From contig JAUKPH010000027.1 in assembly GCA_030549335.1 (NCBI GenBank), positions 1,798,001 through 1,862,000 on the forward strand: a DNA stretch of 64,000 nt, given 5' to 3'. Below the pieces are notes generated by a model. It was not told the DNA's origin. It searched no databases and saw nothing but the letters and a program-made list of their open reading frames with translations. The stretch comes from Pontederia crassipes. Taxonomy: Eukaryota; Streptophyta; Magnoliopsida; Commelinales; Pontederiaceae. Numbering within the stretch: the stretch's first letter is position 1; the number at the start of each line of letters is the position of its first letter. Positions 38,303-64,000 of this stretch are shown here, piece after piece. Made by a program: the position numbers and the translations under genes.

Positions 38303-40311
38303 GAGTTTGTCTGAATGTCTTGGTACTATGGTTCTGAAATGGTTATTTCTGTTTTGGATACTCTTTTAACTCTTACTTCATCTTAATTTTTTATTATGTT
38401 TTCATTATGGATTCAAGTTACAATTGTTGGTGATTGGTGAATCAAGGTTGAACACCAGTTCTTTCACTAGGTCTGTATCTAAATGCCCATAAGCTTATCT
38501 TATTCCACATCACTATGTTGGTTGGTGACACAAATACGAGATTTAGAAAAATGGTGTTTAAATGTGTTGAAGCTTCTACCGCAGGTAATAGCATAATTGA
38601 TTTAGAAGAAAAATACCTATTGCCTCAGAGGGTGTTATCGGAAAGTCTGATACAATACCATCAACCGAGAAGGCCTTATTGTCAACGTAAGAAAGAACTT
38701 CTGCTAATGGATCATAACTGTAGTTGTAGCTAAAAAGATTGTCATTCGCAAAGTCTGCCGCATGAATTTCCAACCCTGCTTTGTGGGCATCCGCAACAAT
38801 TGAAGTGAATGATAGCAGATAGTTATCAGATGTTACTGGCCAGATGTATGTTTTTGGAACTAGAATTCCATCAGCAACTAATTTGAGAAATGTGAGATTG
38901 CTTAACAAGGAACCATATGTTGCTTTGGTGGAAGCTTCAACAATATTCTTGTCAAGGAAGCGGAAGATGAGTTTTGTCTTGGTGTTGCTAAATATTGTCT
39001 GTATACCGCTAAGGAATGACAATTCTGGTGAGGAAATGTAGTTCACAGGGACGCGCCTTGTCACACTGAGTACATAACTTGTCATGCTTAAGTTATGTTG
39101 AGTGTAGAAACTATCATGCTGCAATAAGAACAGACGATATTTTAGTTGGCAAGTAACAGGTGCAGAACAACTATATTTAATCTGTTCTATAATAGGTTTA
39201 CTTGTATGTTCAGCCAAAGAGCGGTTGCATTAGTTTGCTTTACCACATCATCCACAGAAAGTATGTGAAGCCTACTTGAATCGAATATGTATGTTCGAGA
39301 ATAAATTGACTGTATCACTGCACAAGGTACAATGGTTAATTAGATAGGCACAGACTAAAGAAAGCAAGAAGTAAAATTTAGCTTTGAAGTTAGCTATTGT
39401 ATAACAGCTTGTTATGTTTGTTCAAAGATCTAATTTAAATTTGAAACTAAAATCAGAAGCGAGGGCTATAGATTGCTTACAGATTGTACTTTGAGAAACG
39501 TACCTAAAATTTAAATTAATACTTAGAAAAGAGAGACTTGTACCACTTACAAGAGACAGATGAGAGTTGTGTACTATTATAGTCCACAGAAAACCAGCCT
39601 ACCATGTTGATACCGTTGACGAGGTATGATCTCTGCCCTTGAGGATACAACCGTACAATATTGGTGCAGTTGTCTAATTTTAAGTCCGGTAGACAAATCC
39701 CGACGCCGTCCTTCGTCAAGCGAACGTCGCACAACAAAATGGTGGCAGGTGAGCTCAAAATTAGAACGGCATCGTAGGCATAAGAGCTGGAATCTGGAAA
39801 CAAGCCAGAGAACCCACCCTTCGCTATTATTGCTGGAGGGTCTCCTAAAAAGTATCAGATCCGGTAATCAGCTGCGCCCCTTAAAGAATACAATGCAACG
39901 ACAAAATATTGTGACACAAATGCCAAATCCAACAATCCGAAAATTAAAATATCAAATTGTGGTTACAAATTGAAAGTCTAATGATTTCCGACATAGCCGC
40001 CAGCAAACTCCTCTACCAAGACAAATTACCTTAAAAAGTCATGCAACAAAGAAAGTGAAATATTAATTTACTTTGAAGAAGAGGAAGTCTTTCCATCAAT
40101 CTTACTATATCATAAAAGAATAGAATCAAATCATGAAGAATTGCATACTATAGCATCTGTTTTAAAAAAAAAACAAGAAAAATGTGTAAAAATTATGACA
40201 TCCAACGAGAAAGATACCACTGAGTGTTAACCAAGATGAAGAGTTCTGAGCTGTGATCATAGTGGTCTGCTGCAGAAGGATGATGGCAAGCAGGAATGAA
40301 GAGGCATCCAT

Positions 40312-43819: not shown

Positions 43820-44272
43820 TTTACTACTAATAATAATAGGTTGTCAACTTCAAATTATCCATTATTCATTATTAATTATTAATTATTAATTGATCATAGG
43901 TCAACTTTAACCTATATTAATAATTATTAATTAATCATTATTCTTCAATCGTCATTGTCAATTGTCCATAATTATCAATCAATCATAAAATTAATTGGCT
44001 ATGATTTATAAGTTATATTTTTATGAAAAAACCGCCGCTATACTATAGTTTATTATAAAAAAATTTAAAGTAAATATATCTAATGTTATAAGAAAAACAG
44101 AAATCTTAATATATCAATTTCTTATGTCAATAATAGAAAATTTGAGAACTTCTAATTCAACACTTTAACCAATATAACTCCGAATAAAAGATGTTATGAT
44201 ATTTTTGGTGGAATTCTAGTTTAAGGAGATGGCTCAGAAATCTGTCTCACTCCCTCACACACTATGTTAATA
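43820..44272 (+). promoter_or_regulatory. Promoter-like block, copy B, left part
   Basis: This corresponds to 40620-41200 of copy A (ATTATTAATTAT...GATCATAGG, AAGTAAATATATCTAATGTTAT, TTGGTGGAAT(T/G)). It runs into the MULE-2 target site, and the block continues at 52822. AT-rich flanking DNA at 43500-43820 holds nothing else recognised. Confidence 0.55.
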
Positions 44273-44371
44273 GGATAAAATGTTTGTCATACACCTATTA
44301 TGCGTATGACAATCATACGCATATTTTCTGTGCGTGCGATATGATCGGACGCATCGCCTTCGTGCGCGTTT

Positions 44372-44405
44372 GAACCGGCCACTATTCATGAATAGTGGCC
44401 GGTTC
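44372..44405. repeat. 34-base perfect palindrome in the MULE-2 TIR
   Basis: The half-site is GAACCGGCCACTATTCA, followed by its exact complement. The same palindrome is at 52689-52722. Close by, GCGTATGACAATCATACGC is a second inverted repeat. Possible roles are hairpin formation at the ends or transposase binding. Confidence 0.9.
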
Positions 44406-45024
44406 AGGCCTAGTGGCAGCCTTCTCACACGCGTGACTTTCCACATTTTTTCATCCAGGCGACCGCGATCCATTTCCCCCTTCCGCGAGTGAGCGGCTCC
44501 CGATCCGGCGAAAATTCAACCGACGACGGCAGAGGTTCCGGTGAGTTCTCTTCCTCAGTCGCAGTAGGTTTCTTCTCTGAATGTTCTTGCCCTAATATGT
44601 CTCGTTTCTTCTCCATTGAAGACTGGCGATCCCAATCCCCAGGCGATCGCAATCCCTTTTCCCCCTTTCGCGAGTGAGCGGCTCCCGATTCGGCGAAGAT
44701 TTAACCGAACACGACAGGGGTTCCGGTGAGTTCTCTTCCTCAGTCGCAGTGGGTTTCTTCTCCGAATGATGTTGCCCTAATACATCCCGTTTCTTCTCCA
44801 TTGAAGGCTGGCGATCCCGATCCGACGAAGGCGAATGTTGGCGATCCTGATTCGGCGAAGTCATACGACCGCCTCTGGCAAGTTCTCTTCTTTCTTCGTC
44901 AGCATAAGGTTTCTCTTGCCCTAATATGTTTTTTTTACTTGTATGTTGCTCTTGCCCTATGATGATTTTTTTACTGCCCTAATATGTTTTTTTTACCTGA
45001 ATGTTGTTGTTGCCCTAAGATGCT

Positions 45025-47887
45025 TGATAGTTAAATTGAGGGAGTGTAGTGATAACTTGCTAATTTTGGGGTCAAATTTCAGATTTTTCAATTTTTGATT
45101 TAACTCCCTAAGTCACTTTCAACTACAAGTATACAGGTTAATTGTAGTCTACCCAAATGTCGTATCCACAGTGCTTTGAAGCCTAAGACTCTTTAAACAA
45201 TCTAGATTAGCCTTAACTAAGGTTAAAAATCTAAGAATTTGAAAGAAAGTTAAAATCGATTTCTAAAAAAGACTAAAATGATAACTGTTTTGGAATTTTT
45301 GAAAAGTTATCTAAACTAAATTGTAAATGCTAAACTAGAGGCTCAAAGGGTTTAACTATCAATGAGAAAGATTCTTCTAGGAGTTGGGGTTCATCTAACT
45401 TAATTATGGATGGAATGGAACAAGTTATCAATTCAAATTCAAATCTAACTCAACTTGTATAATTTCTATTTTCACAGCTCGTTTAACCCTGAACTAATTA
45501 TCATATCCTCATATGATTGATTAGCTAAGTTGAATTAGAAGAGGTCCTGACTGAAATCAAATTAACATTAGGCTCAAAACCAAATTCTTTGCTGATTTTT
45601 GGCAATTTAATGAAATCTGAAATGATAATCATCAATTGCACCTTGAAAATGAAGGAAATATTTCAATCAATTAAACAGGATGAAATCAATCCAATATTGA
45701 TACAAATGCTTCTTGGTTTATTTTTAAACTACACAAGGATTTTAAATCAGCTTCTCAACTGCAAATTTAAATGAAATTCACATTTTTACCAAGGGATTGA
45801 ATGAAATCAGCACCTATATTTCATATCAGCACCTATATTTCATATGGGAATTCAACAATCTCATTGCATTCTTGGTCCATCTCTGAACATCAAGACAACC
45901 TTAAAATCACCTCTCAGTGATTAATGAAACCAGGGCTTTAACAATAATAAGGCAGGTTCCACAATTTCAGGATTTCAGCAACTAGAAAATTCAGAAACCA
46001 GCACCTAGCAAACATTGAAATTCAGCACATATCACTGATTAGAATTTAGATTTGCCATTGCTCTTTGGTTCATCTCTGAACAACAAAGTATCCCTAGGAT
46101 TCACTTCTCAGTGATTTAATGATATCAAGGGTTTACAACAGCAAATCAGAATCCAAAGATTCAAGAAATCAGCAAAGGGAAAATCAGAAATCAACATTCA
46201 AAAGTTTGCAATAAATCAGGGATTATAAATTTGGAAACACCATTGCCTCTTGATTCATTTCTGAACAAGAATGAAATCATAAGCAACCTCTCAGTCATCA
46301 ATTAAATTAGGGCTCAACAATGATAGAAACAGGTTTGACAGAATTCAGAAATCAAAAATCAGATTTGGGGGAAAAAATAGATTTCAGAATTCAGATTTCA
46401 TATTTCTAATTGGATTAGAACCTAGAAACTTGGCATTAATTCTTGATTCATTTCTGAACAAGATTATATCAAATGACAACTTCTCAATTGTAGCTACAAT
46501 CAGGACCTTACAATGTCAAGAATCAGATTCATGTAAAACAGATTTTAGGAAATCAGAATTGAAATCAGGAATCAAATTTTAGTGCAGGAAATCAGATTTG
46601 TCCCTAATCCATCCACAACTAATCTAGATTACTACCCTATCCTAGGAGACATAGAGTTTAGCTCCTCATAATTACAAACATAGATTCAAAATAGAATGAA
46701 GAACAGAAGCTAATCATCCTGATTTTGAGGGTTGTTCTGTAAAAATCAGCAACCCTTTTGCAGACTTCAGCTCCACTTCCCACTCCAATTTATCTCCAAT
46801 CCTGCAATGGCCGGCCTCCTCCTTTTCCTTAGGGTTTTCAGCTTATATATGACTTCTTTCCCCCTTAGATCAGCATCAAATTATTCCATAGCTTCTGATA
46901 TGCGCCACCTGTCCAGGTCTTGAAAATATCTACATATGACAGCTTTTTGGACAGCCAAAAAGCAAGTGGTCCCCCCTTTGATTTCCCAACTTTTTCAGCT
47001 CCATTCACTTGCAATAAGAGCCAAAACATCAAGCATCAAAGTCTTCTAATAAGATATAAACAAATAAGGATTAAAACAACAAGTCATATCAGCTCAATTA
47101 TCAAATGAGGTTTGGTGTTATGCAGAATTAAAATCCATAGTAAAAAATAATAGTTTTGAGGCCCGGAATGATAACTTTGCATATTTCATGAAAATTATCC
47201 AAATTTGAGTGGTTCAAAGTATTGAAGGCATCAAAGGGATTAGGCTAGCAAGTGAATGAAGTCAGAAATAAAATATGAATAAGATTTCATAGGAATAATA
47301 TCTTGGGTGCCAAAAACGATAACTTAATGCATTAAAAATGATAACTTGTCATAACTTTGGTTGTGGTTATCCAAATATGATGAAATTTGAACAACAATGA
47401 GTTAAGACAGTAATTTAGTGATTGCTTAATGCCTTTGTGCAGATTTGATAGTTTTACATATCGAAATGACAATTTTGCCCTTAAATGATAATTTGGAATT
47501 GAAAAATGATAACTTGTTTAAATGGATTGATAATTTTGCACAAGTTGAAATATGATCATCCAAATATGATTCATTCATGATGACAATGGATTTAAGGCAG
47601 AATAATCACTGAAAATTAGCTAAATCAAAATAATGATAACTTGTGCATTTGGAGTGATAACTTATCCTAAAAATGATAACTTGGCATAGAATTGAAATAT
47701 TTATTGATTTTGGCAATTCAGAGCCTCTATGCATATGAAATCAAGTATAAAATGGGAAAAATCAACTAGTTATCACAATCCTTGCATTCCAAACATAAAT
47801 GGCCAAAAGTTATGCAAAATAGGGGCTCGATATGGGTGAAATGCATCTAAAATGGAATAAAAATCTATTGTGATCAGCTAGTGATCA
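45025..47887. mobile_element. Solo LTR, 2863 bp, inside the MULE-2 left arm
   Basis: The block starts TGATAGTTAAATTGAGGG and ends GCTAGTGATCA. It is flanked by a perfect 5-bp duplication, ATGCT (45020-45024 and 47888-47892). The intact right arm of MULE-2 shows the pre-insertion sequence. It contains no pol. It holds a cluster of about nine (A/G)TGATAACTT-like words at 47165-47680 and related TTCAG/AATCAG-rich sequence. Another member of the family begins at 63241. Orientation is unresolved. Confidence 0.88.
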
Positions 47888-48132
47888 ATGCTCTTGCTCA
47901 CTTGCCCTAATTTGCTTTTCATTTGCCTTAAGTTGCTCTTGCTCATTTGCCCTAACATTTAGTTCATATGACTTTGATTGGTGGCCGCGTGATTCTTGGC
48001 TCCCGCCTTGCTCATGTTATAAGCAACCATAGATAATGTCGATCACCTACACCAAATTTCAGATAATTCAAAATTTTTATCTGCCATATATTTTTGTCAT
48101 AGTTATAATAAGCCATTTGAAATTCATGCAAT

Positions 48133-48529
48133 ATGACGTTGTCTAAGTGCCACTGCAAACAAGAAGTCATGGTAAGGACATCTTGGACCGAACAAAACCC
48201 GGGACGAAGGTTCTACGGATGTCGGTTCTATGGGGTGAGTTATTAAATTTTCTTTCATATCATCTTTTAAATTATTTCTTATCGTAACAACAAATGTCCA
48301 TATCTTGTAGCAAACCGGAGCGTGTCAATGTTTCAAATGGTTGGATCCAAGTTTTGAAGATCGACCTACACACGTGATAAATGGATTATTACGAAGACTC
48401 AACAGGATGCAAGCTGCAAATGAGTTATTTGAAGATGAAATTATAGTTAATAGGAATGGAATGAAGTTCGTTTGTAAAATGTTTATCGCAGTGTTTATTC
48501 TATTGGTACTGATGGTTATGTTTATATAA
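48133..48529 (+). CDS. Small GRF-type zinc-finger protein with C-terminal membrane segment
   Basis: Two exons, 48133-48234 (34 codons) and 48311-48529, join across a GT-AG intron at a codon boundary to give 106 residues. Residues 6-44 match the GRF zinc finger: CHC at 6-8, then TSW, NPGRRFYGC ending at Cys30, Cys39 and FKW at 42-44. GRF fingers bind nucleic acid in other proteins. A VINGLLRRL helix follows, then residues 88-106, mostly hydrophobic (MFIAVFILLVLMVMFI), look like a tail-anchored membrane segment. The gene lies in the left MULE-2 inverted arm and points inward. An inverted second copy (51826-51430) is broken. It may be a captured host gene or a transposon accessory gene; no function is proven. 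The start Met gives the shortest complete finger. Confidence 0.7.
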
Positions 48530-48610
48530 CATGAACCGATGTCTAGTTTGTGCTATATGTTTATGTTATCTTGTTGAAACAATCTTCTTATGTATAACTA
48601 AATTTCCTTC

Positions 48611-48940
48611 TCTGAATGATGTTGCCCTAATACGTCCCGTTTCTTCTCCATTGAAGGCCGGCGATCCCGATCCGACGAAGGCGAAGGTTGGCGATCTTGA
48701 TTCGGCGAAGTCATACGACCGCCTCTGGCAAGTTCTCTTCTTTGTTGCTCTTGCCCTAATATGTTTTTTTACTGCCCTAATATGTTTTTTTGTTACTTGT
48801 ATGTTGCTCTTTCCCTAAAATGCTCTTGCTCATTTGCCCTAAGTCACTTTTCATTTGCCCTAAGTTGCTCTTGCTCATTTCAACTATAAGCTATATGCAT
48901 TAAATTATTCATTTGTAAACCTTATAGTTTTTAAAACTGC
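48611..48940 (+). repeat. Extra copy of a TIR sub-repeat in the MULE-2 interior
   Basis: From CTCTGAATGATGTTGCCC onward this repeats left-arm sequence near 44755-44990 (CGTTTCTTCTCCATTGAAGG, GATTCGGCGAAGTCATACGA, GCCCTAATATG runs) in direct orientation. It may be the promoter or 5' region of the transposase gene. Open frame 48531-48818 is this repeat. Confidence 0.65.
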
Positions 48941-49006
48941 TATCTTTCTTTGCATTTTAATCTTGCTGTGTTGGGTTTAGGGATTTTTCATATTTTCTTT
49001 ATGCAT

Positions 49007-51174
49007 ATGGAAGCATTTGAAGATGAGTCCAATGCATTTGCAAGTAGTGCTAATTATATTGAAGAAATTGCTGAAATTAATATGGACGATCAGATTGAGG
49101 AGTTGAATGTCGAAAACATTCAAAGTTCAAATTCAGTAAAATTTGTTGACCTACCAAAGTCATATGTCGGTATGACATTTGATAGTGACGAAGAAGCATA
49201 TAAATATTATAATATGCATGCTAGATTGGTTGGCTTTTCTATTAGAAAACATGCTGCACATAAATCGAAAAGTACAGGAGATATTGTAAGGATATTTGCT
49301 TTGTTCTAAGGAAGGACACAAGAAAGTGAAGCAAGATTTTGAAAAGGGCAAACAAAAAGAGAAATTAGAGACGGTTGTCTTGCCCATTTATATGTTGGGC
49401 TAAGAAAAGATGGAAAATGGGAAGTGAAAAGATTCAAAGAAGAGCATACTCATCCTTTAACAACTCCATCAAAAATTAAATATTTGCGTTCACAAAAAGT
49501 AATTTCGCATACATCTAAAGAAGCTATTGTCAACTTGCATGGATATGGCATGGGTCCATCGAAGATAGCCAGGGCACTTTATATGTCTGGTGAGCCACTA
49601 TTAACACCTCAAAACTGTATAGACCATCTGAGAAGAAAAAGAAAAAGCAATCTCGGTACTGAATGCCTAAATGTCATTTCATGTTTTCAGAATAAGATGA
49701 GTGTGGATCCAGGTTTCTTCCATAGATGGGAGTTTGATTCAGAGGGCACAGTTATGAATTTCTTTTGGGCCGATGGTAGGTCAAGAGATAGTTATCTAAA
49801 TTTTGGCGATGTTGTTGTTTTTGATACAATATATCGAACAAATAATTTACGAATGTCATTTGCTCCATTTACTGGGATCAATCATCATAGGAGATCATGT
49901 TTGTTTGGTTGTGCTTTACTTGCGGATGAGATAGAAGAAACATTCATATGGTTGTTCGAAAAATGGTCTAAGTGCATGAGTGAAAAACATCCTGCTTGTA
50001 TAATTACTGATCAGGACATTGCGATGGGCAATGCAATCCATAAAGTTTTTCCACACACCAAGCATATTTTTTGTGCTTGGCATATTAAAAAAATGCGATG
50101 ATTCATTTGCAAGATTTATATGCACTCAGTACATTTAAAGAAGATTATAGTAAATGGCTTCATGACTCTTCTAGTGTAGATGAATTTGAAGAAGGGTGGC
50201 ATTCTTTGAAGGAAAAATTTGATATCCCAAATGGGCACTGGTTGGAAAATATGTACAACAAACGAGGACAATGGGTTCCATTATATTTTAAAGACCTTTT
50301 TACTATGAGTGGGTATGCGCACTACCCAACAAGCAGAAAGTATCAATGCATTCTTCGATGGATATGTCAATGCAAACACATCATTATCAGATTTTGTACA
50401 CCAATATGATTTGGCAATCAAGACTCATCGTGGACTGGAAGAAAGAGAAGACTTTCATACAATGAATTCTATACCTGCTTATGTAGTGAAAAATCAATTA
50501 GAAGTTGATGCGGGCAGCATTTACACGCACAATATTCTTTGCAAATTCCAAGACCAATATTCGCAGGCTTTCAAGATGTACGGACATAAAATTTTCAAAG
50601 ATATTGAGAAGTCCATTTACTCAGTATACTCAATAGAGAGTGTGGATGAAGGTAAAAATATTGTCGAATATAATCAACATGATAGAATCTCTACAAAGTG
50701 TTCTTGCAAAAAATTTGAATAGGAAGGAATATTTTGTTGCCACATTTTATGTATTTTGAATAAAAAAGGAGTTGGAACTCTACCAAAGGAATATGCACTT
50801 CGTAGATTGACAATGAATGCAAGATATAAAAAGGCACGTACAGTTCAGCTAAGCATTTAGAATTTGGTTTTCCCATTATAGATGAGGTTATAAAAAAAAT
50901 TAATGCCTTCGACATGGATAATCAACCTATGGATGTAGGTCAATCAAGCAATGATGTGTCTGTCAGTCAACCAGCAATTGTCAATTTACATGAATCACAA
51001 TTTATTATACGCGACCCGGCTCGTGTAAAAGCAAAGGGTAGACCCAAAAACGTGGGAAGAATTAAATCCAGCGTTGAAATTGCTATGTCACAAAGTGATT
51101 CACAAAAAATGAGTTGTGGACAGTGTGGAAAGAAAGGACACAATAAGATAAAATGTTCGATGATGAAGGTATGA
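49007..51174 (+). pseudogene. FAR1/MURA-type Mutator transposase, several frameshifts
   Basis: The probable start is the Met at 49007. In order: an acidic leader; a FAR1-type DNA-binding region (AYKYYNMHARLVGFSIRKH, then CSKEGHK and a basic stretch); the MULE transposase domain with catalytic positions D in VVVFDTIYRTN and D in ACIITDQDIAMGNA, and E in TTQQAESINAFFDGY; a SWIM zinc finger (CSCKKFE then CCHIL); and a C-terminal CCHC knuckle (CGQCGKKGHNKIKC) ending at 51174. The coding sequence is split across frames near 49305, 49375, 50098 and 50310. A stop follows CSCKKFE near 50720, and further breaks lie near 50860. The frames 49424-50101 and 50309-50722 are the largest intact parts. Some breaks could be introns, but the one inside CSKEGHK and the SWIM stop are not. 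Confidence 0.85.
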
Positions 51175-51349
51175 CATGTATAATATCACACATATTTGTT
51201 ATAATTGTTTCTCATGGTCTTACATACCAAAGAAATCCTTCACATAAGAATCCTTCACACGTTTTTCACAGGGATAAAGAAGGATCCTGGAAAAGAATCC
51301 TTCACATCAATAAAGAAGAATCCCGTAAAAGGATCATCATACCATAAAA

Positions 51350-52821
51350 AAGGAAATTTAGTTATACATAAGAAGATTGTTTCAACAAGATAACATGAAC
51401 ATATAGCACAAACTAGACATCGGTTCATGTTAGATAAACATAACCATCAGTACCAATAGAACAAACACTGCGATAAACATTTTACAAACAAACTTCATTC
51501 CGTTCCTATTAACTATAATTTCATCTTCAAATAACTCATTTGCAGCTTGCATCATGTGGAGTCTTCGTAATAATCCATTTATCACGTGTGTAGGTCAATC
51601 TTCAAAGCTTGGATCCAATCATTTGAAATATTGACACGCTCCGGTTTGCTATAAGATATGAACAGTTGTTGTTACGATAAGAAATAATTTAAAAGACGAT
51701 ATGAAAGAAAATTTAATAACTCACCCCATAGAACCGACATCCGTAGAACCTTCGTCTTGGTTTTCGTTCGGTCCAAGATGTCCTTACCACGGCTTCTTCT
51801 TTGCAATGGCACTTAGGCAACGTCATATTGCATGAACTTCAAATGGCTTATTATAACTACGACAAAAATATATGGCAGATAAAAATTTTGAATTATCTAA
51901 AATTTGGTGTAGGTGATCGACATTATCTATGGTTGCTTATAACATGAGTAAGGCGAGGGCCAAGAATCACGCGGCCACTAATCAAAGTCATATGAACTAA
52001 ATGTTAGGGCAAATGAGAAAGAGCAACTTAGGGCAAATGAGCAAGAGCATCTTAGGGCAACAACAACATTCAGGTAAAAAAAACATATTAGGGCAGTAAA
52101 AAAATCATCATAGGGCAAGAGCAACATATAGGTAAAAAAAACATATTAAGGCAAGAGAAACCTTATGCCGACGAACAAAGAAGAGAACTTGCCAGAGGCG
52201 ATCGTATGACTTCGCCGAATCAGGATTGCCAACCTTCGCCTTCATCGGATCGGGATCGCTATCCTTCAATGGAGAAGAAACGGGACGTATTAGGGCAAAA
52301 TCATTCGGAGAAGAAACCCACTGCGACCGAGGAAGAGAACTCATCGGGACCCTGCCGTGTTCGGTCGAATCTTCACCGGATCGGGAGCCGCTCACTCGCA
52401 GAAGGGGAAAAGGGATCGCAGTCGCCTGGGGATCGGGATCGCCAGCCTTCAATGGAGAAGAAACGAGACGTATTAGGGCAAGAACATTCGGAGAAGAAAC
52501 CCACTGCGACCGAGGAAGAGAACTCATCGGAACCCTTGCCGTCGTCGGTCGAATCTTTGCCGGACGGGAGCCGCTCACTCGCGGAAGGGGAAAAGGGATC
52601 GCGGTCGCCTGGACGGAAAAAAGAGGTAAGTCGCACACATGAGAAGGCTGCGTCTCGTATCAAAAATAAAAAAAATAAAACAAGGCCTGAACCGGCCACT
52701 ATTCATGAATAGTGGCCGGTTCAAATGCGCACGAACGCGGTGCGTCCGATTAGATCGGACGCATAGAAAACATGCGTATGATTGTCATACGCATGATAGG
52801 TGTATGACAAACATTTTATCC
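51350..52821 (-). repeat. MULE-2 right inverted arm
   Basis: This is the reverse complement of the left arm over its full length. It ends at the same base on the inner side (AAATTTCCTT). It contains the second copy of the palindrome (52689-52722), matching sub-repeats (52206-52600) and the decayed GRF gene copy. Open frames at 52108-52712 on both strands come from the sub-repeats and are not called genes. Confidence 0.85.
51430..51826 (-). pseudogene. Decayed second copy of the GRF zinc-finger gene
   Basis: The exon structure is identical to the left copy: 51826-51725 and 51648-51430 are 102 and 219 nt, exactly as on the left. In exon 2 the Trp of the FKW motif has become TGA and an Arg codon (CGA) has become TGA. 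Both are the G-to-A / C-to-T changes expected from decay of methylated DNA. NPG in the finger is changed to KPR. It lies in the right inverted arm, pointing inward. Confidence 0.8.
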
Positions 52822-53030
52822 ATGTTAATATATTAATCCATTTATAATAGAATATAACATCTAGGATAAGCATTTTAGTATTTTAAAACTATGTAATTTG
52901 TAGTTGCTTTTTCTAGGTTATAGGTCTATTCTTGATTAATGATGGTTACTTACTCTTGACTCGAAATGCTTTGTGTAAAATGACGCCCATTTCATTAACA
53001 ACATATAAATAGGAAAGACCGGGATAGAGT
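52822..53030 (+). promoter_or_regulatory. Promoter-like block, copy B, right part
   Basis: This continues the block interrupted by MULE-2: GTTAATATATTAATCCATTT, GGATAAGCATTTTAGTATTTT, and a TATAAATA box at 53004-53011 followed by GG. The block's gene is not seen downstream. The stretch from 53031 to 53318 holds nothing recognised. Confidence 0.5.
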
Positions 53031-56536: not shown

Positions 56537-57490
56537 ATGGCTCCGCCTCGTACTAAAAATGCACATATCGAGCCAACATCCTCTCGTGGTGAAACTCCCG
56601 GTCGTGCAGGTCGAACCCCCAATTGTCATCATTCATCTTCCTCCGGTTCTTCCTCCAAGTCTCCACCATCACCTACTGGCTGTGACAAGAATCTTTTTCG
56701 CACATCTGCATTTGGCCTCATCTACAACACCTTTTACAGCACACGCGAAATCAAGCGCGTGATTACTATTGATCGGGACTCTTTTCACATGATTGATGTC
56801 CAAGAAATGTTCTCCGATATTGGTTGGTACCCTCTCGTGACCTTATGAGAACACATCTATCCTCGCTTGGTTCGCCTATTTTACAAAAACATGATAATTA
56901 AGAAAGATGTCCTTGTGACCTTGGTCCTTGGACATCGCATCATTGCCGACCTCATTGTCCTCCATCTCATCTTTGGATTTTCGCAACCGGCAAACACTAA
57001 AGAAATTGTTTCCTACGCCATCCACTCTTGGCCTTCTAGTTTTCAAACCATTCAGGCCACGGTGGAGCTAGTGTTTGGCGACTGCGCTTCCCAATACAAG
57101 ACCGATGATGTCCAAAAACATCTTCCTCGTGAACTTAAGGTTGCACATCACATCTTGACTCATATCATAACCCCTCATTCTGGACATTTCAATGAAGTTC
57201 AGCATTTCGATCTCTTTTTTCTTTATTGTCTTTGTATTCATGATGGTTCACGTCTTAGCTTTTCACACTACTTTCTTTATCATCTCGAAATCATACAAAA
57301 GAAAATTTTAAATAAAGCTCCTGGAAACCATCCCTTGTACTTTGGCTCATGGATCACTAAGATCCTTATTTACTTTGGAGTCATCATTCCTCCTGATGAG
57401 GAATTCATTCCTGCCCGGACATGGCATACTATCACCTCTACTGCGCAGAAAACATATTCAACAAAGTCAGGGAGGTGGCAGAGCACTTGA
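56537..57490 (+). pseudogene. Retrotransposon env-like / 'putative plant transposon protein' ORF
   Basis: One reading frame runs from ATG 56537 (MAPPRTKNA...) to 57490, broken only by an in-frame TGA at 56846-56848. The N-terminus is basic and Ser/Pro-rich. The second part begins with HIYPRLVRLFYKN, continues through HLPRELKVAHHILTHIITP and ends around LIYFGVIIPPDEEF. This pattern matches the plant-specific domain found in the third ORF (env-like) of SIRE/Maximus-type Copia elements and in related 'transposase 32' proteins; its molecular role is not settled. Its location upstream of a polypurine tract and LTR (58087 onward) fits the 3' end of such an element. The pol region is absent to the left, so the element is truncated or non-autonomous. 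Confidence 0.65.
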
Positions 57491-61075: not shown

Positions 61076-63240
61076 CTCTTTTAATGCTTATTTAAGTTCA
61101 TAATTGCTAATGTAATTCATCATCACAGTCATTAGCACCACCTTTACATCTTCACCATCATTTATAAGTTTCAACTCACAAACATATGATCCCATTATAA
61201 TTTAATGAGCATAACGTGAAAGAGAAATATAATAACTTTTTTTTAATATCAATTATAATATGTTGTCATAGTTTCAAATTACAACATCAAATTGTCATTA
61301 GGTGAGAAAAGTCAAGATAATCAAATTGTCATTATCATCAAATTATCTCATTAATAAAAGTCAAGATAATAAAAAACATGAATATCTAATATATAATCTA
61401 ATATAACGTCAAGAAACAAAATATAAACCTTTATGATAATGACAAATAACACATATACTAATACTTGTGAAGGTGAAAAGTAAAATAATAAAAGCATAAA
61501 TACATACCTCAAGATTGACATTGGTAATAATAGTAAACGTGACAAGTCATTGGCAAACCTGTATATATATATATATATGTCACACACGTGATAAGCCACT
61601 AGCGACTTTACGCCTACTTTTCTTTATTCTTTTCAACATATTTCTTTATTAATAGCTTAGAGGATTATTGATGATAGCGAAAAATAATTTTATAGAATAA
61701 AAAGTTATAAAAATGATTATATTTCTTATAAAGGATAATAATGCACAAAAATTTGTAAAATTTTAAAAAATAATGAATATAATTATCATTAATTATTTGA
61801 ATCACATTTTTATTATATATATATATATATTATTAAAACATTGAAATCATGTCGAAGCCACCATGCTTATTTTTTTATTTTTCATCATTTTTTATTCCTA
61901 TTTCATTTAAAATTACTAATCTTTAACCTCTTTTAATGCATATTTAATCTCATAATATCATACATTAAGGAATCGATTAAAATAATTAATTCACACTCTC
62001 AACTTACCGCACCACTATTTTCAACCATCATTATTTCATTTAGTGTCATGAATATAAAACAATATAATTAAAATATTTTTTTTATTCTCCTACAATTTTT
62101 TTCTTCCCAATAATTTATCGTTATACTTTTTTTTAACTTTTATTTTAAAATATATTCAATATTATATATAGTTGATGCAATAGAATCATCCTCAATTCAT
62201 ATTTCGCCTTTATCACTTTTTTTTTAAATTTCTCATCCATTTCATCCATTAATAAACATATTTTATAATATAACTAAATACAATATTAAATGACATAAAT
62301 TCCGAATCCAAAACTACGTACCTCAATGAATGCAACGGTTTCAAATTTTTTAATAACCCGAATTGATAATTTTCAAACTTCTAATATGGTGTAATTTCTT
62401 CTCTTCGGTACGTATTAGAAAACACACATTTTAACGGTTTCAATTTTTTTAATAACTTCGCCCAATTAAATCATTTTAATACCACGGTGGCTATTTGTCT
62501 GTTTTCTCATTTATTTAATTTTTATTCCATTTTAAAATTAATAAATTTATTAACCTCCTTTGATGACATATTTAATGTCATAATACCACTTATCTCCTTA
62601 TTATTTTCAGCTATCATTATTTTGATTTAATTTCATGAATACAAAATAAAATAATTAAATAATATTTTCTTTATTCTCCTACAATTTTGCCGATAATTTA
62701 CCTTTATACTGTTTTTTGTTTTTAAAATTATAATCATTTTTTTAGTGTTTCATATTAAAAAGTCATGCAGTAGGAATGACAAAATAATTTTATCTTGAAA
62801 TCATCCCTCATTATATTGTATTTTTTCTTTTAATTTTGATTCTATATATTCTTTTGTTTACTATTATATTCATTATTATAATAATTCATTATTATCCTTT
62901 TATGTTATAAGATTTTTAATTTCGATTTTCATTATGGCATTGGAATGACACTACATATTAATCAATACTTCTTCTAGGAGAGAGTAAAATCGGATTCGGG
63001 TCCGGGTCCAACCGAACCAGATCCTATTTATACTGGGTTTAAAAAAATTGAAACTGGGGTAGGAACAGGTCGGACCTGGAAAACCACAAATAAAATCAGA
63101 AATGGAACAGATAATTTATTAAAAATAAATAATTTAATATTACTACAATGAAATCAAATTTTAGATAATTTAATATATTATTATAATTATATTTTAGTTG
63201 TGAATCAGGAATGGACTGAATTTAGATAAATCATTGATAG
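61076..63240. repeat. AT-rich region with a degenerate direct repeat; no gene
   Basis: Two segments, about 61870-62130 and 62490-62720, are diverged direct copies (ATTTAATTTCATGAATA(C/T)AAAA, TTATTCTCCTACAATTTT, ATAATTTA(C/T)C). A third fragment near 61070-61220 shares AATCTCTTTTAATGC(T/A)TATTTA. At 62980-63090 a GC-richer fragment (GGATTCGGGTCCGGGTCC) resembles a MITE terminus. Minus-strand frame 61351-61599 is a chance AT-rich frame. Confidence 0.55.
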
Positions 63241-64000
63241 TGATATTATGAAGTGTAGTGATAACTTGCTGATTTTGTAGTTAGAATTGAGAATTTTCAA
63301 TAATTGGATCAATTCCCTAACTCTCTCTCTACTGTAGTGCACAGGTCAATTGTAGTAAACCCAAATATCGTATCCACAGTGATTTGAAGCCAATGACTCC
63401 CTAAAATAATCTAAACTAGCCCTAACTAAAGTGACAAATTCAAGAAATTAAAGGAAAGTGAAAATAGATTTTTAAAAGTGACAAAAAGGATAATTATTTT
63501 TGGTGTTTTGATAATAGAAAAGAACTGAGATCTAATTACTGAATTAAGGACTAAAAATAGTTTATCAATCAATGGAAAGGTTCTCCTAAGGGTTGGGGTT
63601 CATCTAATTCAGCTATGGATGAAATTGAACATTTTAACAATTTTAAATTAAATTTGATTCAACCTTAACTATGGCTGCTCTCACAGCTTAATTAGTTCAA
63701 AACTAATCATTATATTCTCATATAAATATTAGCTAAGTTGAATTAGAGGAGGATCCCTACTTAGTGTCAAGTTATCATTAGCATGTGCACAAGTCCCTCA
63801 ATGATTTTGCCATTTTTTCTAAGATTTTGGCAATTTCAGTTTGGGACTTCAACCAAATCACACATCAACTACTCAGAAATGATATGAATCCAATCCTAAT
63901 ACTAATACTTCTTGGTTTATATCTAAACTAGAAGGAGATTTTGAATCAGCCTCTCAGTTATAAATTTAAATGAAATCCACATTAGTACTAATCAATTGGA
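63241..64000. mobile_element. Second member of the 45025 LTR family, cut by the window end
   Basis: It starts TGATATTATGAAGTGTAGTG and aligns from there with 45025-45720 (GTGTAGTGATAACTTGCT, CAATTGTAGT(A/C)(A/T)ACCCAAAT, CGTATCCACAGTG, AGGTTCTCCTA-like, TTCTTGGTTTAT). The right end is outside the window, so its status (solo LTR or whole element) is unknown. Confidence 0.75.

Follow-up and report, generated by a model that had tools for sequence, protein, structure and literature searches.

A Mutator-like element (MULE) with inverted arms was identified in the 64,000-nucleotide stretch of Pontederia crassipes DNA analysed here (the window), and a small gene coding for a GRF zinc-finger protein with a hydrophobic tail was found in both of its arms. 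The gene probably came to lie near both ends through the copying of one end of the element over the other. We interpret the element as a dead, formerly autonomous MULE of the FAR1 type. Its ancestor would have carried two convergent genes between terminal inverted repeats (TIRs) of about 0.8 kb; the left end would later have been overwritten with sequence copied from the right end, and the GRF protein would have been an accessory factor. To this reading as a whole we assign an even chance.

Structure of the element

The element spans 8,549 bp (44273-52821) and is bracketed as a whole by a single outer pair of target site duplications (TSDs), the left copy ATGTTAATA at 44264-44272 matching exactly the right copy at 52822-52830 over 9 bp. 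Its inverted arms measure about 1.46 kb, two left-hand stretches of 752 and 708 nt pairing with the right arm (51350-52821, minus strand), which we read as the source arm. The outer part of the left arm (44273-45024, plus strand, GC content 0.493) matches the right outer arm in inverted orientation with 91.9% identity and contains a 184-bp tandem repeat together with TTGCCCTAA motifs; this motif occurs 15 times in the window against 0.39 occurrences expected, and all 15 fall within copies of the arm. On the GRF side the identity is 94.9%, with 36 of 708 positions differing, and in the inner part of the left arm upstream of the GRF start codon (47893-48132, plus strand) the portion compared (47902-48132) is 94.8% identical to the right arm. 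Given these identities, the arms are not recent copies, and a recent homogenisation was ruled out by their divergence of 5-8%. An open reading frame in the right outer arm (52108-52638) returned no Pfam match.

A solo-LTR-like insert of 2,863 bp (45025-47887), foreign to the MULE, splits the left arm; it has TG...CA ends and the TSD ATGCT on both sides, the second TSD copy lying at 47888-47892. Its own TSD and its ends ruled out the insert as a component of the MULE. The first 0.78 kb or so of the insert is 71% identical to positions 63234-63998. No direct repeats were found at its ends, the direct repeats present being internal, and it is therefore not a complete LTR element.

The interior of the element is occupied by the remnant of a FAR1-type MULE transposase (48992-51174, plus strand), delineated from the reading frames and from a PF10551 match of 2.5e-30 and disrupted by several frame breaks and in-frame stops. 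The relatives of this transposase are FAR1-RELATED SEQUENCE 5-like proteins. PF03101, the FAR1 domain, scored 18.2 bits in the broken N-terminal reading frame, below the cut-off of 28.1, and was counted by eye in 117 of the best 120 of 388 transposase relatives, while a GRF domain fused to the transposase was found in none of the same 120. A CCHC-like motif was recognised by eye near the end of the transposase.

The element thus combines a TSD within the 8-11 bp range given for MULEs (PMC6446971), long TIRs and a MULE transposase domain, and the original prediction of an 8.5-kb MULE with a perfect 9-bp TSD was confirmed. The predicted arm length of about 1.47 kb was also nearly exact, although the insert that splits the left arm had been missed. 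The element falls outside the Pack-MULE class, which consists of non-autonomous elements carrying pieces of host genes without a transposase, since it has a transposase remnant of its own.

The two copies of the GRF gene

Alignment of the arms defined the same gene model on both sides, with a first exon of exactly 102 nt, a GT-AG intron of 76 nt and a second exon of exactly 219 nt (stop codon included), and with both copies pointing inward. The left copy, on the plus strand, consists of exon 1 (48133-48234), an intron beginning with GTGAGT and ending with TTGTAG (48235-48310) and exon 2 (48311-48529), which is open and encodes the hydrophobic tail. Its frame retains the start codon, the splice sites, the finger residues and the tail, and in the spliced protein of 106 amino acids PF06839 scored 25.9 bits, exactly at the gathering cut-off of 25.9. 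The right copy, on the minus strand, comprises exon 1 (51725-51826), the intron (51649-51724) and exon 2 (51430-51648) and is a pseudogene, with in-frame stops at codons 44 and 52 and the substitutions N22K and G24R at positions kept in relatives. The left copy seems to have changes of its own at codons 12 and 41, as read from the alignments. The expected GRF finger and hydrophobic tail were both recovered in the left protein; the expectation of the same inward-facing two-exon gene in each arm held for exon lengths and orientation, but not for the integrity of the right copy.

The two copies differ by 13 non-synonymous codon changes, two of which are the stops, and 6 synonymous ones. The proportion of 13/19 since the split of the arms gave no clear sign of selection (p 0.16), 19 changes being too few to tell from neutrality.

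The GRF-tail protein family

The protein belongs to a family well represented in plants, as had been anticipated, with 759 proteins retrieved at E<=0.001. At4g04775-like plant GRF-type proteins share with it the GRF finger, a conserved VINGLLRR-like stretch and the hydrophobic tail, whereas in overall sequence the resemblance is looser, six relatives showing 33-50% identity across 60-100% of the protein. The GRF alignment gave 25 pattern matches in viral contigs and 12 in prokaryote genome contigs, none of which was confirmed, an outcome in keeping with a plant gene.

The structure model of a relative (P0001; pLDDT 90.8, pTM 0.61) consists of a zinc ribbon followed by a helix of 46 residues. 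The nearest solved chains by sequence are NEIL3 GRF fingers (6.8e-06), and a Foldseek search with the same model also placed NEIL3 GRF domains at the top, with E values of 0.057-0.065, none reaching E<=0.001, and probabilities of 0.98-1.00. The zinc ribbon might hold single-stranded nucleic acid and the long C-terminal helix might act as a membrane anchor; this putative accessory role is the weakest step of the proposal.

In Castilleja foliolosa, nine GRF-tail proteins of 175 amino acids, 93.7-99.4% identical, are encoded on contigs of nine different sizes, which suggests dispersal of GRF-tail genes. The proposed spread of such genes by mobile DNA thus receives indirect support from these near-identical copies, but nothing ties the Castilleja copies to MULEs.

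An inner partial arm copy and a proposed single breakpoint

A second, partial copy of the arm, which had escaped the original prediction, adjoins the inner side of the left GRF gene. BLAST and a three-way alignment placed it at 48607-48884 on the plus strand, the inner limit being approximate; in BLAST, 48603-48817 matched the outer arms at 86-89%. We read this copy as the remnant of the former left TIR. The match of the left GRF block to the right arm ends at 48609 and the remnant begins at 48607, so that one breakpoint, with the trinucleotide CTT (48607-48609) common to both parents, accounts for both limits. The internal copy exceeds 100 bp and has neither a TSD of its own nor a tip; the three-way alignment revealed no further TIR tip at the inner join, and no direct repeats of at least 7 bp flank the copy.

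Over all sites the outer arm is more diverged than the GRF side (61/749 against 36/708, p 0.02). After removal of CpG transitions the values became 37/725 and 28/700 (p 0.37) and the difference disappeared; the similar non-CpG divergence of the two parts fits one copying event. In 162 ungapped columns of the three-way alignment, 2 changes were unique to the left arm, 7 to the right arm and 5 to the inner copy, with 7 differences between inner copy and left arm and 9 between left and right arms. The greater age of the inner remnant that the copying model would lead one to expect was not found in this alignment. If the left extension is disregarded, the distance inward from the estimated TIR limit is about 123 bp for the transposase ATG (49007) and 178 bp for the GRF ATG.

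Origin of the doubled gene

In maize MuDR, mudrA and mudrB face each other from both TIRs. The ancestor of the present element may have had the same layout, in which two convergent genes each began slightly inside a TIR of about 0.8 kb, the transposase read from the left and a single GRF-tail gene, located outside the TIR, read from the right. A copy of the right end would then have taken the place of the left end; it would have extended 1.46 kb towards the interior, across the GRF gene, and been joined into the old left TIR via the 3-nt microhomology, possibly by a template switch while a gap was repaired. Thereafter the arms would have included the GRF gene, now double. Copying from right to left is favoured because two independent breakpoints would have to fall at the same place if the direction were reversed; no match to the left outer arm was found in the interval 51175-51349, which separates the end of the transposase from the right GRF block. 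Decay of both the transposase and the right-hand GRF gene is evident in the present element, whose left arm has also received the solo-LTR-like insert. A gene lying in both inverted arms would be doubled with them, as originally proposed, and the GRF gene is indeed present in both; its residence in the TIRs by design is not supported, the breakpoints suggesting a later entry.

The accessory function proposed for the GRF protein has a competitor, somewhat short of an even chance, in which the gene was captured from the host and travelled as a passive, Pack-MULE-like passenger with no role in transposition, a reading compatible with the copying history. MULEs are known to pick up genes from their hosts, and sequence so acquired can come to lie in extended TIRs (PMC3310237); the wide occurrence of the GRF-tail family in plants and the lack of clear selection between the two copies point the same way, and the retained intron is as expected of capture at the DNA level. 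However, the gene is whole rather than a fragment, its start lies a short way inside the estimated ancestral TIR, and its orientation towards the transposase is that of a gene belonging to the element.

It is unlikely, in our estimate, that the left end, instead of being copied from the element's own right end, derives from another element of the same family that was joined to it by nesting or recombination. An arm divergence of 5-8% would also fit two family members, and recombination, or a nested insertion in which the inner TSD was lost, has been considered for tandem TIRs (PMC3310237), but the inner join shows neither a further tip nor a flanking direct repeat, and one outer TSD pair encloses the whole.

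That the gene has resided in both TIRs since the start of the family, as originally predicted, the inner partial copy being a later tandem duplication, is improbable: the inward orientation in both arms, the nearly equal divergence of arm and gene without CpG changes, and a divergence between inner copy and left arm that does not exceed the one between the two arms agree with it, but the limit of the duplication would have to fall by chance at the exact base where the arm homology stops.

Comparison with known MULEs

The end-over-end copying that we favour starts from an arrangement close to that of MuDR, which likewise has two oppositely directed genes, one of them for the transposase, and within whose group the 9-bp TSD is in range (PMC9168764, PMC6446971). 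The right GRF copy (51826-51430), read from the minus strand, faces the transposase from the other TIR as the second gene of a MuDR-type element does. MuDR carries promoters within its long TIRs (PMC3310237), and expression of the present element may have been driven from its TIRs. The present element departs from MuDR in that its second gene codes for a GRF-finger protein with a membrane tail, in its FAR1-type transposase and in the presence of the second gene in both arms.

Abermu MULEs of barley and other plants offer a further parallel, their type II extra reading frame (ORFR) lying in the opposite direction between the transposase and the 3' TIR, with origin and role described as unknown (PMC9168764). 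Abermu is, however, described as closer to MuDR than to other MULEs, the account of these elements in that paper describes no ORFR in both TIRs, and the term "GRF" is absent from its main text. The plant subgroup of the Jittery group (group 36) has a FAR1 N-terminal and a SWIM or CCHC C-terminal domain, and is listed with one open reading frame, TIRs of 39-292 bp or none and an 8-bp TSD (PMC6446971), whereas the present element has two genes, TIRs of about 0.8 and then 1.46 kb and a 9-bp TSD. This one-frame listing of the FAR1-bearing plant subgroup counts against the reading that we favour.

An extra internal TIR-like copy at one end, with no TSD around it, is also a feature of the MULEs with multiple long TIRs, most of which are reported as non-autonomous, the one with a transposase-like interior being broken (PMC3310237). 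Compared with these elements as described there, the internal copy found here is partial, without a tip, and the outer and inner copies have a complete gene between them. No GRF gene within a MULE was found in the open-access literature surveyed by title and abstract for GRF with Mutator or MULE.

Implications

A more general hypothesis, which we put forward tentatively and consider rather unlikely, is that the second gene of a FAR1-type MULE lineage codes for a tail-anchored GRF protein that belongs to the element and corresponds in function to MURB or VANC. Much of the large plant family of GRF-tail genes would then be made up of such genes or of stranded copies of them, with doubling whenever one end is copied onto the other. 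Should the GRF gene prove to belong to the element, an origin would be available for hundreds of plant GRF-type proteins that lack an explanation, and a protein that binds nucleic acid while anchored in a membrane would be an unusual accessory factor for a transposon. For a passenger gene, too, the one readable join suggests how a single MULE gene can enter both TIRs and be doubled, by a route in which one end is copied over the other through a 3-nt microhomology and part of the old TIR is left as a scar. This decayed element suggests how small genes combining a zinc finger and a membrane tail could multiply in plants.

Architecture of the element

The 8,549-bp Mutator-like element (MULE) occupies positions 44273-52821 of the window; its ends match each other (GGATAAAATG...) and the 9-bp target duplication on either side, ATGTTAATA, is perfect. 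Reading inward from 52821, the right arm extends to 51350 and is inverted with respect to the left arm, in which the matching sequence forms two blocks (44273-45024 and 47902-48609). Together with a MULE domain in the transposase frame (2.5e-30), these features confirmed the original prediction of a MULE bearing a GRF-finger gene in both inverted arms. Exons of 102 and 219 nt, separated by a 76-nt GT-AG intron and pointing inward, were found in each arm.

The transposase frame (about 48992 to 51174) showed several breaks, and this copy of the element can hardly produce a working transposase. A FAR1 match in the frame was weak and below cut-off. The best 120 of 388 transposase relatives, with identities up to 48%, were mostly FAR1-RELATED SEQUENCE-like or unnamed, and none carried a GRF domain.

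The relatives of the proteins encoded in the window point to plant DNA. The window is AT-rich (GC 0.316), whereas the outer arms (44273-45024 and 52046-52821) have a GC of 0.49 and CpG observed/expected values of 1.22 and 1.31 respectively, without CpG depletion, a composition that appears promoter island-like. The 9-mer TTGCCCTAA occurs 15 times in the window against 0.39 expected, always within arm copies and oriented inward (44587-48855 and 52004-52473), and is perhaps a candidate transposase binding motif. Each outer arm also contains a perfect 36-bp palindrome (44371-44406 and 52688-52723).

The left arm is split by a 2,863-bp insert (45025-47887) starting with TG, ending with CA and bordered by ATGCT (45020-45024 and 47888-47892). 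As no end repeats were found at its two ends, the insert was read as a putative solo LTR. It is CpG-poor (observed/expected 0.12 over 45025-47895), and its first 0.78 kb shares 71% identity with 63234-63998, a related sequence beginning close to the end of the window and reaching it. Elsewhere, a 213-aa frame (56849-57490) resembles Transposase_32, a putative plant transposon protein, but at 33.5 bits the match stays below the cut-off of 45. A 217-aa open frame (38576-39229) had no match in a Pfam search; we take it to be reminiscent of a glycerophosphodiester phosphodiesterase-like protein.

The GRF protein and the state of its two copies

The spliced left GRF protein has 106 residues and matched PF06839 with 25.9 bits, exactly at the cut-off. 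A first protein search returned six relatives (33-50% identical), among them one from Rhynchospora and two each from Mercurialis and Linum, and a search with their alignment returned 759 at E≤0.001. Among the best 120 of these, 106 showed a hydrophobic 17-residue stretch within the last 60 residues, according to a threshold of our own used with no control set. A 108-aa relative, rather than the left protein itself, was modelled from an alignment of 54 of the 120 listed relatives, showing a zinc ribbon followed by a single 46-residue helix (pLDDT 90.8, pTM 0.61). The GRF fingers of NEIL3 were the nearest solved chains both by sequence (6.8e-06) and by fold (E about 0.06), the fold search against solved chains giving none at E≤0.001. 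In APE2 the GRF residues bind single-stranded DNA, and the activity of the RNA methyltransferase ZCCHC4 depends on its GRF residues (PMC6834594). We infer that the hydrophobic tail is a membrane anchor.

Left and right copies differ at 19 codons, 6 synonymously and 13 non-synonymously, the latter including stops at codons 44 and 52 of the right copy. This copy also carries the changes N22K and G24R, both at residues that do not vary across a seven-sequence alignment. The right copy is a pseudogene; the expectation of the same gene in each arm thus held for the exon/intron layout but not for intactness. The proposed selection check, made on the left/right pair only (63.3 synonymous and 254.7 non-synonymous sites), showed that 13 non-synonymous changes out of 19 were not significantly fewer than the neutral expectation (p 0.16), so that selection since the separation of the arms is not clearly indicated. 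Identity between the copies is 91-95% in exons, intron and upstream part, and 99% in the downstream 80 bp. The conserved finger and tail nevertheless imply that the gene worked before the split.

Proposed copying history of the arms

A second partial arm copy (48607 to about 48884), read as a remnant of the former left TIR, lies just inside the left GRF gene; direct repeats of at least 7 bp flanking it were looked for and none was found. The match of the GRF block to the right arm extends to 48609, and that of this inner copy to the outer arm starts at 48607, so that the join shares three bases, CTT, present in both parents. On the right side the GRF block continues toward the transposase end, and no match to the left outer arm was found in 51175-51349. 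Copying of the left end onto the right would need two breakpoints to coincide. A single right-to-left event, in which a copy of the right end, GRF gene included, would have overwritten the left end and been joined into the old left TIR by CTT microhomology, would explain the breakpoints, the CTT and the right-side pattern. Against this overwriting history, the inner copy does not clearly appear older than the arms: over 162 ungapped columns unique changes number 2 in the left arm, 7 in the right and 5 in the inner copy, which therefore shows 7 differences from the left arm, fewer than the 9 that separate the two arms. Limits of the TIRs before the proposed overwriting would lie near 48884 and 52004, which places the transposase ATG about 123 bp, and that of the GRF gene 178 bp, to the inside of these limits. 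The reconstructed ancestor would resemble MuDR in its convergent gene pair, and the most plausible view of the doubled GRF gene is that it arose incidentally, when one end of the element was overwritten by a copy of the opposite end.

Relation to known MULEs and possible role

Genes additional to the transposase are described in MULEs, namely mudrB, ORFR of Abermu and antisense PMD genes in MUDR groups (PMC9168764, PMC6446971), as is VANC, the anti-silencing gene of VANDAL elements (PMC13317346). Duplicated TIRs are also on record, their origin being called unclear there (PMC3310237). A GRF gene as an additional MULE gene was not found among the open-access papers listed by the literature searches.

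Among the relatives listed, Castilleja foliolosa has nine 175-aa GRF-tail proteins, 93.7-99.4% identical, whose genes sit on contigs of nine different sizes. Segmental duplication is a possible origin; the pattern looks like within-genome dispersal of near-identical genes, of the kind that mobile DNA would produce. Between a passenger and an accessory factor of the MULE, we slightly favour the accessory factor. The FAR1-bearing Jittery plant subgroup is listed with one ORF and short TIRs (PMC6446971), so that an element combining a FAR1-type transposase with a second gene would count as a new variant.
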